A DNA stretch of 64,000 nt. Source: Asanoa ferruginea. Its GTDB lineage: Bacteria > Actinomycetota > Actinomycetes > Mycobacteriales > Micromonosporaceae. Below, piece by piece: positions 57,097-63,814 of this stretch (position 1 is its first letter; every line of letters starts with the position of its first letter). The position numbers were made by a program, and so were the translations under genes. Location: positions 2,418,001 to 2,482,000 of the forward strand of contig NZ_QUMQ01000001.1 of assembly GCF_003387075.1 (NCBI RefSeq). Reading direction: 5' to 3'. The notes below the pieces were generated by a model, which saw only the letters and a program-made list of their open reading frames with translations, made no database searches and had not been told where the DNA came from.

Positions 57097-57711
57097 GTGA
57101 CGCTGGAACAACAAGCGGACCCCGCCACCCCGAGTGCCGCGTCCACCCCGCCGAAGCGCCGATCCCGGCGCGACGAGATCCTCGAGATCGCGGTCGGGCT
57201 GTTCGCCGCGCGGGGGTATCACGGCGTCTCCATGGACGACATCGGGTCGGCGGCCGGGGTCACCGGCCCCGCGCTCTACCACCACTTCGCCGGCAAAGAG
57301 GCGATGCTGGTGGCCGCGCTGATCCCAGTCAGCGAGGGCCTGCTGGCCGGCGGCCGGGAGCGGGTCGCCCGACACCCCGGCGAGGCCGCCCTGGCCTCCC
57401 TGGTCGAGTTCCACGTCGACTTCGCGCTGGCCAACCCGGCGGTGATCGCCCTGCACCTGCACGAACTCGACCGGATGCCCGAAGACCCGCGCCGGCAGAT
57501 CCGCCGGCTGCAGCGGCTCTACGTCGAAGAGTGGGTCAAGGTCCTCACCCGGATCCGTCCCGAGCTCACCGCGCCCGAGGCCCGGGTGCTCGCCCACGCC
57601 GCGTTCGGCCTGATGAACTCCACCCCGTTCCTGGGCGGCGAGGTCAACCGGGAGCGCCTGGCCGACCTGCTCCGGGTCGCCACGATGGCCGCCTTGCGCG
57701 ACACCGCCTGA
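57097..57711 (+). CDS. TetR-family regulator, probably of acyl-CoA catabolism
   Basis: 204 residues from GTG 57097, 6 nt after TAGGCT (leaderless). HTH: RRDEILEIAVGLFAARGYHG, VSMDDIGSAAGVTGPALYHHFAGKEAML. The C-terminal ligand domain is helical (LVEFHVDFALANPAVIALHL). It sits 64 bp before the biotin carboxylase gene. By analogy with actinobacterial accD1-accA1-fadE clusters that start with a TetR gene, it is probably the local repressor. Its own operator is not evident. Confidence 0.9.
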   Translation: MTLEQQADPATPSAASTPPKRRSRRDEILEIAVGLFAARGYHGVSMDDIGSAAGVTGPALYHHFAGKEAMLVAALIPVSEGLLAGGRERVARHPGEAALASLVEFHVDFALANPAVIALHLHELDRMPEDPRRQIRRLQRLYVEEWVKVLTRIRPELTAPEARVLAHAAFGLMNSTPFLGGEVNRERLADLLRVATMAALRDTA

Positions 57712-57775
57712 GCAACCACCGCAGGACCATTTATCCTCCAGCCGGGCAGTGCCGCCCGCCGAAAGGGGAGTCCTG

Positions 57776-59113
<1,338 letters not shown>

Positions 59114-59165
59114 GTCACAGGATGACCAATTTTTCCCATTCACCTGCGTGACCCGCTCCAAGCCA

Positions 59166-59232
59166 GTTCGTTACCTAGAGCAGTGGCGGTCATAACCGGT
59201 CAAATCAGGCCGGACCGCCACTACTAACGAAC
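59166..59232. promoter_or_regulatory. Nested inverted repeats before the secreted protein gene
   Basis: Outer arms GTTCGTTA (59166-59173) and TAACGAAC (59225-59232); inner arms AGTGGCGGTC (59182-59191) and GACCGCCACT (59213-59222). All are perfect. It lies 53 bp past the biotin carboxylase stop and 21 bp before the next ATG. It could be a terminator for the former or an attenuator for the latter. Confidence 0.6.
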
Positions 59233-59252
59233 CGGCGAGCGGAAGGCCAACC

Positions 59253-60389
59253 ATGATTCGGTCGGGGGTCGAGCGCAAGCAGCGCACGGCGCCGCGGCGG
59301 GTCCTGGTCCGGACGCTCGTCGTTGGTGGTCTCGCGGGGGCGGCTTGGCTGCTGTCCGCGTCGGCGGCGCAGGCCGCTGGTGCGGAACCGGTCGCCGATC
59401 ACGGTGCGGGGTCCGTCCTCGCACCGCTGACCGGGGTACTGGAGACCGCGAAGCCGGTGTTGAGCACGGCGACCGGCCTGCTCGGCGACGCGCTGGTGCC
59501 GGTGACGGCACAAACGCCCGTCGAGCGACCGTTGTCGACCGGCCGGACCACCGCACAGCGGGTCATCTCGGATCCCGCCGCCGTCGTCGCGCCCAGCACG
59601 ACGGCACAACGCTCCATCGTCATCGCGGGCGCGGCACCGGCAGCGAAGCCGGACCACACCGCCGCCCGTACGGCCGTCCGCCTCAGCGCCCCTGACCGGG
59701 CGCCGAGCCGCTCGGCGGACCGGCCCGGACCGCGCACCAGCGGCCTGGCCGGCACACCTGGACTGGTCGCTCCGCTCGGGGTAACCCGTGCGCTGGCCGT
59801 CCCGGGCGCCCTGCTTACCCCGGTGGCTCAGGTCGCCCTGCCGGTTCTCGCGCCGGTGACCGCGCTTCTCCGCCCGTTGACATCGATGCTGCGGCTTGTC
59901 GCGGCACCGCTGTTCAGCACGGTGGGCGCGGTGACCCGGACGGTGACCGGCACCCTGTCCGGCCCTCGCGGCCGGCCAATCCCGGCTGTCACGCCCGTCG
60001 GCGTCGTCGGCGTGCACGGACGCGTGTCATCCCGCACGCCCGGCACGACCGCTGCTGGTTCGGCCAGCGTCGCTGAACCTCGGGCCACTCACACCGGGGC
60101 AAGCACCATCCGGCAATACGTCGGCCTGCCGGAGCGGGTGGCTGCGGCCGCGTCGCACCGGAAGAACGGCGAGACGCCCGGCCAGCCCTATCCCGCTCCC
60201 ACGCGGGGCGAGGGCAGCGCGTCGGGTACCCCGGCCAGCGGGTCGGGGTCGCCGGCGGGAGGTGGTGCGTTCGCCACCGTTCCCTCGTCGGTCGTGGGCA
60301 GCATGGTGGCCTTCCAACTGTTGCCTAAGCCGGCCGACAGTGCGGTTCCCCGGCACGACGCCGAGAAGCCGACCGTCTCACCTGACTAG
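59253..60389 (+). CDS. Secreted hypothetical protein upstream of the chaplin gene
   Basis: 378 residues from ATG 59253 with GGAAGG upstream. Basic N-terminus and hydrophobic core (LVRTLVVGGLAGAAWLLSAS) ending in SAAQAA, a signal peptide with cleavage near residue 41. The mature part is Ala/Thr/Pro-rich with a hydrophobic central stretch (LAVPGALLTPVAQVALPVLA onward, about 190-235) and no cysteines. Family unknown to me. Its position before a chaplin gene suggests a surface role. Confidence 0.75.
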   Translation: MIRSGVERKQRTAPRRVLVRTLVVGGLAGAAWLLSASAAQAAGAEPVADHGAGSVLAPLTGVLETAKPVLSTATGLLGDALVPVTAQTPVERPLSTGRTTAQRVISDPAAVVAPSTTAQRSIVIAGAAPAAKPDHTAARTAVRLSAPDRAPSRSADRPGPRTSGLAGTPGLVAPLGVTRALAVPGALLTPVAQVALPVLAPVTALLRPLTSMLRLVAAPLFSTVGAVTRTVTGTLSGPRGRPIPAVTPVGVVGVHGRVSSRTPGTTAAGSASVAEPRATHTGASTIRQYVGLPERVAAAASHRKNGETPGQPYPAPTRGEGSASGTPASGSGSPAGGGAFATVPSSVVGSMVAFQLLPKPADSAVPRHDAEKPTVSPD

Positions 60390-60468
60390 TGATGAGGACC
60401 TGCACCGTCCGCGACGGGCAGGAGCCACAGCCCCACCCGGGCCACACGGTCCGCGGTAGCGCGGCAGA

Positions 60469-60511
60469 CCAGGAAATCCGATGACCGCTCTGACTAGCGG
60501 TGAGTTCCTGG
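60469..60511. promoter_or_regulatory. Two-part hairpin in the chaplin leader
   Basis: CCAGGAA (60469-60475) pairs with TTCCTGG (60505-60511), and inside it ACCGCT (60484-60489) pairs with AGCGGT (60496-60501). It lies in the 257-bp gap before the chaplin gene. Terminator of the upstream gene or leader structure. Confidence 0.45.
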
Positions 60512-60646
60512 CCGGACATCACGAACGACACCTGGGCGCAAGTCGACAGGCGGAGTCAGGACCCATCACGGCACCGTCGCGCCCGGACAAGGCGACACCA
60601 CAGCAACACCCTCTTACTGACATTCCTTGAAAGGTCACTTCACCCA

Positions 60647-62176
60647 ATGAAGACTTGGGTTCGTAAGTCCATCAGCGTTGGCGTCATGGCCGCGGGTGGT
60701 CTCCTGGCGACGCAAGCGGCGGCGCAGGCCGACGTCGTCACCACCAACAACTACGGCGCACTCAACGGCACGCAGGTCGTGGTTCCGATCCAGGTGCCGA
60801 TCGACGTCTGCGGCAACGCCATCGCCATCATCGGTGGCGCCCAGGCAGCCTGCGACGGCGGTGCGATCGCGGTCAACGAGAGCGCGCACACCACCGAGGC
60901 CGACATCGTCTCCGCCAACAACTTCGGTGCCCTCAACGGCACCCAGGTCGTGGCCCCGATCCAGGTCCCGATCAACGTCTGCGGCAACGCGGTCGCCCTG
61001 ATCGGTGGGGCGTTCGCGTCCTGCGACGGCGGCGCCGCCGCGATCAACGGTGGCGGCTCGGACGACGACCGCGACCCGCACCACGACGGCTACGGCTACG
61101 ACGACAAGAAGGGCCACGGGGGCGGGGAAGACTTCGTCGCCATGGCCGAGGGCAAGTACAAGGACGACCAGGGCAAGAAGCACCACGGCAAGGGCGCCTT
61201 CGCCGACGGTGGCGGCAGCAACATCGTTTCGTCCGGCAACTACGGGCTGCTCAACGGCACCCAGGTCGTCGTGCCGATCCAGGTTCCGATCGACATCTCG
61301 GGCAACGCCATCGGCCTCATCGGTGGGGCGTTCGCGTCGTCCACCGGCGGCGCCGCGGCGATCAACGAGAGCGCTCGGGCCGAGGGCTACGACCGTGGCC
61401 ACGACACCGAAGTCAACATGATCAGCGCGAACAACTTCGGGCTGGGCAACGGCACGCAGATCTACGCGCCGATCCAGGTGCCGATCAACGTCTGCGGCAA
61501 CGCGATCGCCCTCATCGGCGGTGCGTTCGCGGCATGCGACGGTGGGGCGATCGCCTTCAACGGCGAGAGCGCGCACGCCACCGAGGGTGCACACGAGACC
61601 GAGGCCAACCTGATCAGCACGAACAACTTCGGGCTGCTCAACGGCACTCAGCTCTACGCCCCGATCCAGGTTCCGATCAACGTCTGCGGCAACGCGATCG
61701 CCCTCATCGGCGGCGCGTTCGCGTCCTGCGACGGTGGCGCACTCGCGATCAACGAGAGCGCCAGCGCCCAGGAAGAGGCCCTGCCGCTGGTCGGCTCGCT
61801 GCCGCAGCTGCCGGTCGTCAACGGCCTCCCGGTCGTTGGTGGGCTGACCCAGAGCGCCGCTCCGGCCGCCCCCAAGATGGCCGACGCTCCGGGCGCCCGC
61901 TCGGGCGCCACCGAGGGTGACGACTACGACAACGACGACAACGACGGTCGTCACGGCAAGCACGGCAAGAAGCACGACGACCGCGGTCCCCGTGGTGGCG
62001 CCATCGCCGCCAACGGTGGCGGCAACATCGTCAGCTCGAACAACTTCGGCGCCCTCAACGGCACCCAGGTTGTGCTCCCGATCCAGGTCCCGGTGAACGT
62101 CAGCGGGAACGCGATCGGCATCATCGGTGGCGCCTTCGCGCAGAGCACCGGTGGCGCGCTGGCCCTGAACGGCTGA
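60647..62176 (+). CDS. Secreted protein with six chaplin domains
   Basis: 509 residues. ATG 60647 opens a signal peptide (MKTWVRKSISVGVMAAGG, cleavage after AQA at about 28). Six chaplin repeats follow at nt ~60734, 60904, 61222, 61418, 61610 and 62028, each of the form NN-G--NGTQ----PIQVPI-VCGNAI--IGGAFA-C-GGA. Repeats 1, 2, 4 and 5 carry the Cys pair; in 3 and 6 both Cys are Ser. Two charged linkers (His/Asp/Lys-rich) precede repeats 3 and 6. No sortase signal. Chaplins are amyloid-forming surfactants coating aerial hyphae and spores. Confidence 0.93.
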   Translation: MKTWVRKSISVGVMAAGGLLATQAAAQADVVTTNNYGALNGTQVVVPIQVPIDVCGNAIAIIGGAQAACDGGAIAVNESAHTTEADIVSANNFGALNGTQVVAPIQVPINVCGNAVALIGGAFASCDGGAAAINGGGSDDDRDPHHDGYGYDDKKGHGGGEDFVAMAEGKYKDDQGKKHHGKGAFADGGGSNIVSSGNYGLLNGTQVVVPIQVPIDISGNAIGLIGGAFASSTGGAAAINESARAEGYDRGHDTEVNMISANNFGLGNGTQIYAPIQVPINVCGNAIALIGGAFAACDGGAIAFNGESAHATEGAHETEANLISTNNFGLLNGTQLYAPIQVPINVCGNAIALIGGAFASCDGGALAINESASAQEEALPLVGSLPQLPVVNGLPVVGGLTQSAAPAAPKMADAPGARSGATEGDDYDNDDNDGRHGKHGKKHDDRGPRGGAIAANGGGNIVSSNNFGALNGTQVVLPIQVPVNVSGNAIGIIGGAFAQSTGGALALNG

Positions 62177-62197
62177 TCTATCGCACATCGCACCACA

Positions 62198-62224
62198 GGG
62201 GCCCCCGCTACCCGCGGGGGCCCC
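62198..62224 (+). terminator. Terminator after the chaplin gene
   Basis: GGGGCCCCCGC (62198-62208), loop TACCC, GCGGGGGCCCC (62214-62224), followed by TT, 21 bp past the stop. Confidence 0.88.
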
Positions 62225-62249
62225 TTCGCATGCCCGGGTGTAGTAACCT

Positions 62250-62259
62250 AACGATCGTT
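62250..62259. promoter_or_regulatory. Palindrome AACGATCGTT before the carboxyltransferase gene
   Basis: A perfect 10-bp palindrome 25 bp before the GTG start, of a kind recognised by several TetR regulators of acyl-CoA catabolism. Candidate operator for the TetR at 57097, although no copy is seen before that gene. Confidence 0.45.
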
Positions 62260-62284
62260 CAGTAGCGTGGGCGAAGGGGTCGGT

Positions 62285-63814
62285 GTGGCACTCGACGACG
62301 AAGAGCTCGAGCAGCTCGGCAAGCGGGTCCGTGCCGGTGGCGCGGAGCGCTACCACGCGGCCAACGCCGCCAAGGGCAAGCTGTTCGCCCGCGAGCGGGT
62401 CGCCCGCCTGGTCGACGAAGGCTCCTTCGTCGAAGACGGGCTCTACGCCAACGCGCTGGCCGAAGGGCTGCCAGCCGACGGCGTGCTCACCGGCCAGGCC
62501 ATGATCGACGGCCGCCGGGTCTGCTTGATGGCCAACGACTCGACGGTCAAGGCCGGCTCCTGGGGCGCCCGCACCGTCGAGAAGATCATCCGGATCATCG
62601 AGCGGGCCTACCAGTCCGGCCTGCCGATGGTCTACCTGGTCGACTCGGCCGGCGCCCGGATCACCGACCAGGTCGACCTGTTCCCCGGCCGGCGCGGCGC
62701 CGGGCACATCTTCTGGAACCAGGTCCGGGCCTCCGGCTCGATCCCGCAGGTCTGCGCGCTGTTCGGGCCGTCGGCGGCGGGCGGTGCCTACATCCCGGCG
62801 TTCTGCGACGTGGTCGCGATGGTCGACGGCAACGCCAGCATGTATCTGGGCTCCGACCGCATGGTCGAGATGGTGACCGGCGAGAAGACCACGCTGGAGG
62901 CGATGGGCGGCGCGGCCGTGCACACCCGTGAATCCGGCGTCGGCCACTTCCTCTGCAAGACCGAAGACGACGCGCTCGAGACGGTCCGCCGCTACCTGTC
63001 CTACCTCCCGGGCAACTACACCGAGCAGCCGCCCGCCACCACGGCGGCCAGCGCGCCCGACGTCGACCTGGCCGCGCTGGTGCCGGCCAGTGAGCGGCAG
63101 GCGTTCGACATGCGCCGGTTCGCGAAGGGCCTGCTCGACGAGGGCTCGTTCTTCGAGATCCAGGCGCTCTGGGCCAAAGAGCTGACGATCGGTTTCGGCC
63201 GCCTCGACGGCCAGGTGGTCGGCGTGGTCGCCAACAACTCGATGTTCAAGGGCGGCGTGCTCTTCGTCGACTCGGCCGACAAGGCCACCCGGTTCGTCCA
63301 GCTCTGCGACGCGTTCAACGTGCCGCTGCTCTTCCTCGCCGACGTGCCCGGCTTCATGGTCGGCACCGCGGTGGAGAAAGAGGGCATCATCCGGCACGGC
63401 GCCAAGATGATCACCGCGATCGCCGAGGCCACGGTGCCGAAGATCTGCGTGGTGGTGCGCAAGGCCTACGGCGCGGGCCTCTACGCGATGGCCGGCCCCG
63501 GCTTCATGCCCGACGCGACGATCGCGCTGCCCACCGCGAAGATCGCCGTGATGGGCGCCGAGGCCGCGGTCAACGCGGTCTACGCCAACAAGATCGCCGC
63601 GATCGAAGACCCCGAGGAGCGGGCGGCGTTCGTCAGCGAGCGCCGCGACGCCTACGAGCGCGACATCGACATCGTCCACCTCGCGAGCGAGTTGGTGATC
63701 GACGCGATCGTCACACCCGACCTGCTGCGCGCCGAACTGGTCGCGCGCTACGCGGCGGCCCACGGCAAGGACCGCCATTTCTCCCGCCGTCGCCACGGCG
63801 TAACCCCCGTCTAA
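62285..63814 (+). CDS. Acyl-CoA carboxylase carboxyltransferase subunit
   Basis: 509 residues. GTG 62285 has AAGGGG upstream; a GTG at 62267 is in frame but less likely. Crotonase-fold halves: the N-terminal half with VYLVDSAGARITDQ, FGPSAAGGAYIPAFCD and YLGSDRMVEMVTGEKTTLE; the C-terminal half with GVVANNSMFKGGVLFVDSAD, LLFLADVPGFMVGTAVE and RKAYGAGLYAMAGPGFMPD. It resembles AccD1/MccB proteins that carboxylate methylcrotonyl-CoA or related branched acyl-CoA. The acyl-CoA dehydrogenase follows after 21 bp. Confidence 0.93.
   Translation: MALDDEELEQLGKRVRAGGAERYHAANAAKGKLFARERVARLVDEGSFVEDGLYANALAEGLPADGVLTGQAMIDGRRVCLMANDSTVKAGSWGARTVEKIIRIIERAYQSGLPMVYLVDSAGARITDQVDLFPGRRGAGHIFWNQVRASGSIPQVCALFGPSAAGGAYIPAFCDVVAMVDGNASMYLGSDRMVEMVTGEKTTLEAMGGAAVHTRESGVGHFLCKTEDDALETVRRYLSYLPGNYTEQPPATTAASAPDVDLAALVPASERQAFDMRRFAKGLLDEGSFFEIQALWAKELTIGFGRLDGQVVGVVANNSMFKGGVLFVDSADKATRFVQLCDAFNVPLLFLADVPGFMVGTAVEKEGIIRHGAKMITAIAEATVPKICVVVRKAYGAGLYAMAGPGFMPDATIALPTAKIAVMGAEAAVNAVYANKIAAIEDPEERAAFVSERRDAYERDIDIVHLASELVIDAIVTPDLLRAELVARYAAAHGKDRHFSRRRHGVTPV

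Follow-up and report, generated by a model that had tools for sequence, protein, structure and literature searches.

Organization of the locus

The window analysed here, a stretch of 64,000 nucleotides from Asanoa ferruginea (Micromonosporaceae), belongs to a 9.07-Mb genome assembled as a single contig. It carries, at 60647-62176 of the forward strand, an open reading frame whose 509-residue product consists of a signal peptide and six PF03777 repeats of about 46 residues each. The features discussed below are listed with their coordinates in the window.

57097..57711, + strand: TetR-type regulator, SACE_7040-like (226 bits, below the model cut-off of 250), a conserved neighbour
57749..59113, + strand: biotin-carboxylase subunit of acyl-CoA carboxylase, a conserved neighbour
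59253..60389, + strand: P0002, an Ala-rich secreted protein of 378 residues, conserved upstream of the chaplin gene in Asanoa
60534..60548, + strand: 15-nt element GGGCGCAAGTCGACA, starting 113 nt upstream of the start codon and conserved across genera
60647..62176, + strand: gene of the six-repeat chaplin-like protein, 509 residues (open reading frame; Pfam ChpA-C, six stretches)
60647..60730, + strand: signal peptide MKTWVRKS...AQA, residues 1-28, with a putative cleavage site (inspection and conservation)
60734..60871, + strand: repeat 1 (R1), residues 30-75, Cys55 and Cys69
60905..61042, + strand: repeat 2 (R2), residues 87-132, Cys112 and Cys126
61043..61222, + strand: linker before R3, 60 residues, 43% charged
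61223..61360, + strand: repeat 3 (R3), residues 193-238, Cys-less, Ser codons TCG and TCC
61418..61555, + strand: repeat 4 (R4), residues 258-303, Cys283 and Cys297, with R5 as its nearest relative within the protein
61610..61747, + strand: repeat 5 (R5), residues 322-367, Cys347 and Cys361
61748..62026, + strand: linker before R6, 93 residues, containing a hydrophobic ALPLVGSLPQLPVVNGLPVVGGL stretch similar to the last linkers of three-repeat relatives
62027..62164, + strand: repeat 6 (R6), residues 461-506, Cys-less, Ser codons AGC and AGC
62267..63814, + strand: carboxyltransferase subunit of acyl-CoA carboxylase, a conserved neighbour

The initial annotation described a chaplin-type protein with six repeats, and the reading frame, its coordinates and the repeat count were all found to be exact. 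The Pfam ChpA-C model (PF03777) matches the protein with 116.7 bits in six stretches, against a curated cut-off of 21 bits, which places it in this family; taken singly in the genome profile search, R1, R2, R4 and R5 pass the cut-off, and R3 and R6 are not listed. No NCBIfam family matched the six-repeat protein, and a PDB sequence search with it returned no match. The AlphaFold models had a pLDDT of 38.8 for the whole protein (11 alignment rows) and of 44.0 for R4-R5 (79 rows); because these values are low, the models suggest only a series of short strands, give the fold no structural support, and were kept out of fold searches.

All repeats are hydrophobic (GRAVY 0.79 to 0.94), and the linkers are polar (GRAVY -1.10). 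As had been noted before, two positions are both occupied by Cys in R1, R2, R4 and R5 and both by Ser in R3 and R6, which gives the order C-C-S-C-C-S; the protein contains no further Cys. The hydrophobic core and the NGTQ and GN positions are retained in R3 and R6. Each repeat has a single GN motif (C/S-GN); at the first position the sequence is NGTQ in this protein and NGNQ in many relatives, and the third is absent. The linkers preceding R3 and R6 comprise 60 and 93 residues, those elsewhere 11-19. Their charge, to which the initial annotation drew attention, is indeed present (43% before R3, 26% before R6), but it does not set them apart, as charged residues make up 42% of the short linker before R4; since short linkers are charged too, it is length rather than charge that marks the two. 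The absence of a sortase signal was borne out, with no LPxTG-like motif anywhere in the 509 residues, which end in ALALNG. By inspection and comparison, the signal peptide is near-invariant in Asanoa, Dactylosporangium and others.

Conserved neighbourhood and upstream element

The gene order tetR, biotin carboxylase, P0002, chaplin, carboxyltransferase (57097-63814 of the window) is conserved in Asanoa. It is also kept, with other genes replacing P0002 or lying beside it, in Dactylosporangium, Virgisporangium, Planosporangium, a Micromonospora isolate and metagenome bins, and the carboxyltransferase gene adjoins the chaplin gene in further genera too. Because many of the fetched loci are devoid of it, the carboxylase neighbourhood marks one subfamily. 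In Saccharopolyspora erythraea, SACE_7040 acts as a repressor of morphological differentiation (PMC3825060). P0002 had no Pfam or NCBIfam match; part-length relatives, corresponding to its C-terminal part, recur next to chaplins in the g29 and g31 loci.

The upstream 15-mer, GGGCGCAnGTCGACA, is apart from n invariant in 16 aligned upstream regions, save for one letter in one of them. With one mismatch allowed, it has a sole forward site in the whole genome, and each of 38 fetched loci (several of which are overlapping copies of one place) has a single copy, always at a multi-repeat chaplin gene. Such an element may function as a promoter, an operator or a part of the leader. A search of the upstream region against Rfam yielded no match worth keeping, and the leader folds little better than its shuffled versions (z -1.4).

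A second, anchored chaplin

The host genome has two PF03777 loci in all at E<=0.001. The second, at 4.30 Mb (G000:C1:4302609; L003 1156-1899), encodes a chaplin with one Cys-bearing repeat, a proline-rich stretch and an ELPKTG sorting signal followed by a hydrophobic segment and a basic tail. An anchored single-repeat gene of this kind, with ELPKTG or ELPRTG, is found in six of six Asanoa genomes, each of which has this gene and the multi-repeat one as a pair. A class E sortase (225 bits, cut-off 160) is present among the ten sortase matches in the genome. Since about 1.8 Mb separate the LPKTG chaplin gene from the six-repeat one, a partnership of the two proteins is something that we infer.

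Occurrence of multi-repeat chaplins

PF03777 matches were found in 76 of 121 Micromonosporaceae genomes, representing 27 of 44 genera. Many of them are reading frames of three to six repeats, and the high-scoring loci fetched from this family were all multi-repeat except L067, which has one repeat. Both kinds of unit are mixed in 39 of 46 multi-repeat proteins, and 28 of the 46 end with a Cys-less repeat, in a set drawn from best-scoring and pattern-found loci that is not an even sample. Taxon names given for relatives are those of the nearest named records. Of 396 genomes drawn from across the phylum, 15 gave a match, most of them belonging to one genus with Streptomyces-type chaplins of one or two domains.

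Proteins of three to five repeats (in Dactylosporangium, Virgisporangium, g5, g10, g12, g17, g18, g29, g31 and g42) are like the Asanoa protein in repeat type, in mostly mixing the two kinds of unit, and in often having a long linker before the last one; they differ in unit number and order. One subfamily of them also shares the MKTWVRK signal peptide, the neighbouring genes and the upstream 15-mer. More distant are L079, L080 and L081, PF03777-like proteins from three genomes of other actinobacterial families, which likewise have six or more tandem repeats with a GNxI/VxVxG core; all three are entirely free of Cys, and L079 and L080 have a hydrophobic segment at the C-terminus. Long chaplins with two domains and a sortase signal, with which the protein had originally been contrasted, are correctly ascribed to Streptomyces, but multi-repeat forms are common in Micromonosporaceae and occur elsewhere.

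A review from 2013 that covered 100 actinobacterial genomes lists no member of the Micromonosporaceae among the chaplin-bearing genera (PMC4255298), and in the literature searched for chaplins together with Asanoa, Actinoplanes or Micromonospora we found no description of multi-repeat chaplins. Judged by its sequence, the protein is one of a widespread, little-described group of Micromonosporaceae multi-unit chaplins.

Paired cysteines and the Cys-less repeats

Among the distinct repeats of the fetched loci, 133 have both Cys residues, 71 have neither, and five appear mixed; on inspection, the second Cys of these five looks shifted by an insertion or deletion, or seems to lie beyond a truncated end. 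The Fisher value for this pairing is descriptive only, since the repeat rows are related. Joint retention or loss of the pair is the pattern that an intra-repeat disulfide would give. The spacing of the two residues is 14 here, compared with 18 in the Streptomyces domain.

The Cys-less repeats of four Asanoa species have more residues in common than the missing pair. They have, for example, Gly rather than Ala after GNAI in eight of eight cases, compared with none of 13 for the Cys-bearing ones. A separate observation concerns Dactylosporangium, Virgisporangium, g17 and g18, where an outer Cys pair encloses the Cys-less last repeat (for example GGCSDW...AVAYSC), one residue lying just before this repeat and the other being C-terminal (loci L025-L029, L031-L033, L112 and L113), as if the disulfide had been relocated.

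Origin of the repeat order

The order of the units had been taken to suggest duplication of a three-repeat module, in which case R1 is expected to be sister to R4, R2 to R5 and R3 to R6. This was not what the comparisons gave. The closest pair within the protein is R4/R5 (87% identity in protein, 89% in DNA), with R1/R4 at 72% and 76%, and in a tree of 21 repeats from four Asanoa species the R4 and R5 types cluster with support of 94/94. On the same 21 repeats, the AU test rejected both R1+R4 (p-AU 0.002) and R2+R5 (p-AU 0.001).

The third predicted pair is R3 and R6, and the earlier proposal was to fall if these were not sisters; on this point the trees count against it only in part. On all columns the R3 and R6 types form one clade in the Asanoa DNA trees (100/99 with 33 rows, 83/98 with 21 rows), as was foreseen, but this clade vanishes after removal of the two Cys columns and 12 others that separate Cys-less from Cys-bearing repeats; R3 then falls weakly (81/75) with R3 of A. 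ishikariensis and A. hainanensis, repeats that have both Cys residues. Repeat trees rest on 138 columns. The omission costs much of the information, so that this result reveals dependence of the grouping on the trait columns and does not disprove it. R3 and R6 are 78% similar as proteins, and their synonymous similarity is the lowest of all pairs (55.6% identical among same-residue codons). The Ser codons are TCG and TCC in R3, AGC and AGC in R6, and sister-species orthologues of R3 have Ala (GCC and GCG). Because few synonymous codons are shared and the Ser codons differ (TCN versus AGC), the two Ser pairs probably arose separately.

Orders found in relatives vary. Sister species have C-A-C-C-A (iriomotensis, genome G005; siamensis, over two contigs) or C-C-C-C-C-S, and Dactylosporangium has C-S-S-C-S or C-C-A-C-S; position R3 is labile within the genus, with Ser, Ala or Cys. 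No second example of C-C-S-C-C-S was found among the fetched family members. As a sign of duplication taken alone, the order was set aside, three of the 15 possible placements of two Cys-less units among six having a period of three. Free-standing three-repeat proteins of the form C-C-long linker-S exist in several genera (L038, L043, L045, L055, L059, L060 and L066, and further L110, L112, L113 and L116), and this arrangement looks like a recurring unit. The last linkers of these proteins mostly contain hydrophobic LP-rich stretches, as does the linker before R6; the one before R3 does not.

Single columns may also change in all repeats of one species at once (loci L021, L022 and L023). NGTQ is replaced by NGNQ in all five repeats of iriomotensis, and the choice of I or V (GI or GV) is uniform in all six repeats of ishikariensis and hainanensis. 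Such changes in unison are a sign of concerted evolution; they mean that the evolution of one repeat is not independent of the others, and every repeat tree is the weaker for it.

Discussion

The neat CCS-CCS order is real, and its origin by copying of a three-unit block is not supported by the comparisons presented above. Most likely, the present order arose by local tandem duplication, which produced R4 and R5, and by repeated events in which individual repeat positions lost their Cys pair or had it replaced.

In Streptomyces, anchored chaplins have two domains and free chaplins one (PMC7766987), and a chaplin domain in this sense has three GN motifs, 12-13 residues apart (PMC13251363). With the short chaplins ChpD-H the Asanoa protein shares a signal peptide, hydrophobic domains and the lack of a sortase signal (PMC3079736, PMC7766987), as well as the coexistence of Cys-bearing and Cys-free kinds, ChpE being Cys-free. 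It departs from them in having six domains and long charged linkers instead of one domain per protein, and in its Cys spacing (14 rather than 18) and number of GN motifs (one rather than three), so that it is not a short chaplin. It resembles the long chaplins ChpA-C in carrying more than one domain per chain, a Cys-less one among them, as the second domain of ChpB has no Cys (PMC13251363); those proteins, however, are two-domain chains ending in a sortase signal, whereas here there are six domains and no such signal, and the protein does not fit this class either. Of the Streptomyces-type features, then, it possesses the secretion signal and domains with two Cys residues or none, but not three GN motifs per domain. 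It is best described as a divergent multi-repeat chaplin-like protein, whose mode of action is probably that of a chaplin.

The reading that we favour, with reasonable though not high confidence, is that the product of the gene is secreted and unanchored, a multivalent and surface-active chaplin-like coat protein which combines ChpH-like and ChpE-like units. Fibril formation is common to all short chaplins, whether disulfides are present or not (PMC3079736; PMC7766987); loss of Cys from ChpH blocks aerial growth but not fibre formation in vitro, and the Cys-free ChpE is also able to form fibres and is believed to have a coordinating role in assembly (PMC3079736). It is on account of these precedents that we propose intra-unit disulfides and a mixture of units. 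Each repeat would serve as an assembly unit of the chaplin kind; R1, R2, R4 and R5 would each contain a closed internal disulfide like that of ChpH, and R3 and R6 would behave like ChpE, with the linkers acting as hydrated spacers. Joining of the units would fix the ratio of Cys-bearing to Cys-less ones at 4:2 and make the free protein multivalent. The protein would cover the hyphae or spores with a hydrophobic layer, for which the single-unit LPKTG chaplin may act as a nucleus.

Other explanations can be weighed against this one. R3 and R6 might be degenerate copies with no role of their own, and the lability of the Cys state at a given position in the genus (Ser, Ala or Cys in R3) would agree with such decay. 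We consider this highly doubtful, since the hydrophobic core and the NGTQ and GN positions persist in both repeats, the last repeat is Cys-less in most of the multi-repeat proteins, the Cys-less repeats of four Asanoa species have further residues in common, such as the Gly after GNAI, and a new outer Cys pair brackets a Cys-less last repeat in Dactylosporangium, Virgisporangium and others. As to the history of the gene, because C-C-linker-S proteins stand alone in other genera, an old duplication of such a module, later blurred by conversion between neighbouring repeats, retains some probability. Residues that change together throughout a species make conversion plausible, and R3 and R6 are alike as proteins and are each preceded by a long linker; these linkers have a weak protein similarity, with a score reached by one of 500 shuffles, in sequence of low complexity. 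Nevertheless, rejection of R1+R4 and R2+R5 by the AU test, the low synonymous similarity and different Ser codons of R3 and R6, confinement of the hydrophobic LP stretch to the last linker, and the orders C-A-C-C-A and C-C-C-C-C-S in sister species render this history improbable.

A different objection concerns function. The protein could belong to the surface or spore matrix and yet not assemble as amyloid, for example as a cell-wall or matrix adhesin built of chaplin-derived modules. Its divergent domain with one GN motif and its long charged linkers would suit such a role, and a comparable task falls, in the related Actinoplanes missouriensis, to hydrophobic wall proteins that lack chaplin domains (PMC13251363). 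However, the repeats keep the hydrophobic, Q/N-rich character of chaplins and the paired Cys residues, and the mixture of two kinds of unit parallels ChpH and ChpE; we therefore regard the adhesin as unlikely, and prefer the multivalent coat protein.

In Asanoa, as predicted from the encoded proteins, the anchored chaplin has one domain and the free protein has five or six, which is the reverse of the arrangement in Streptomyces. It is tempting to extend this to a chaplin system of Micromonosporaceae with reversed valency, composed of a free concatemer in which disulfide and disulfide-free units have a fixed ratio and order, and of a wall anchor of one unit, with the concatemer gene placed in a conserved acyl-CoA carboxylase locus that has an upstream control element of its own and a TetR regulator of the differentiation type. 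We put this forward tentatively, as a possibility on the doubtful side.

A single chain with both kinds of unit, together with the natural exchanges of Cys, Ser and Ala, provides a test set for the role of the disulfide, and bears on the unsettled question of why Streptomyces needs Cys-bearing plus Cys-free chaplins. Chaplin-like proteins being common in Micromonosporaceae, the finding also bears on how such actinomycetes form hydrophobic surfaces.
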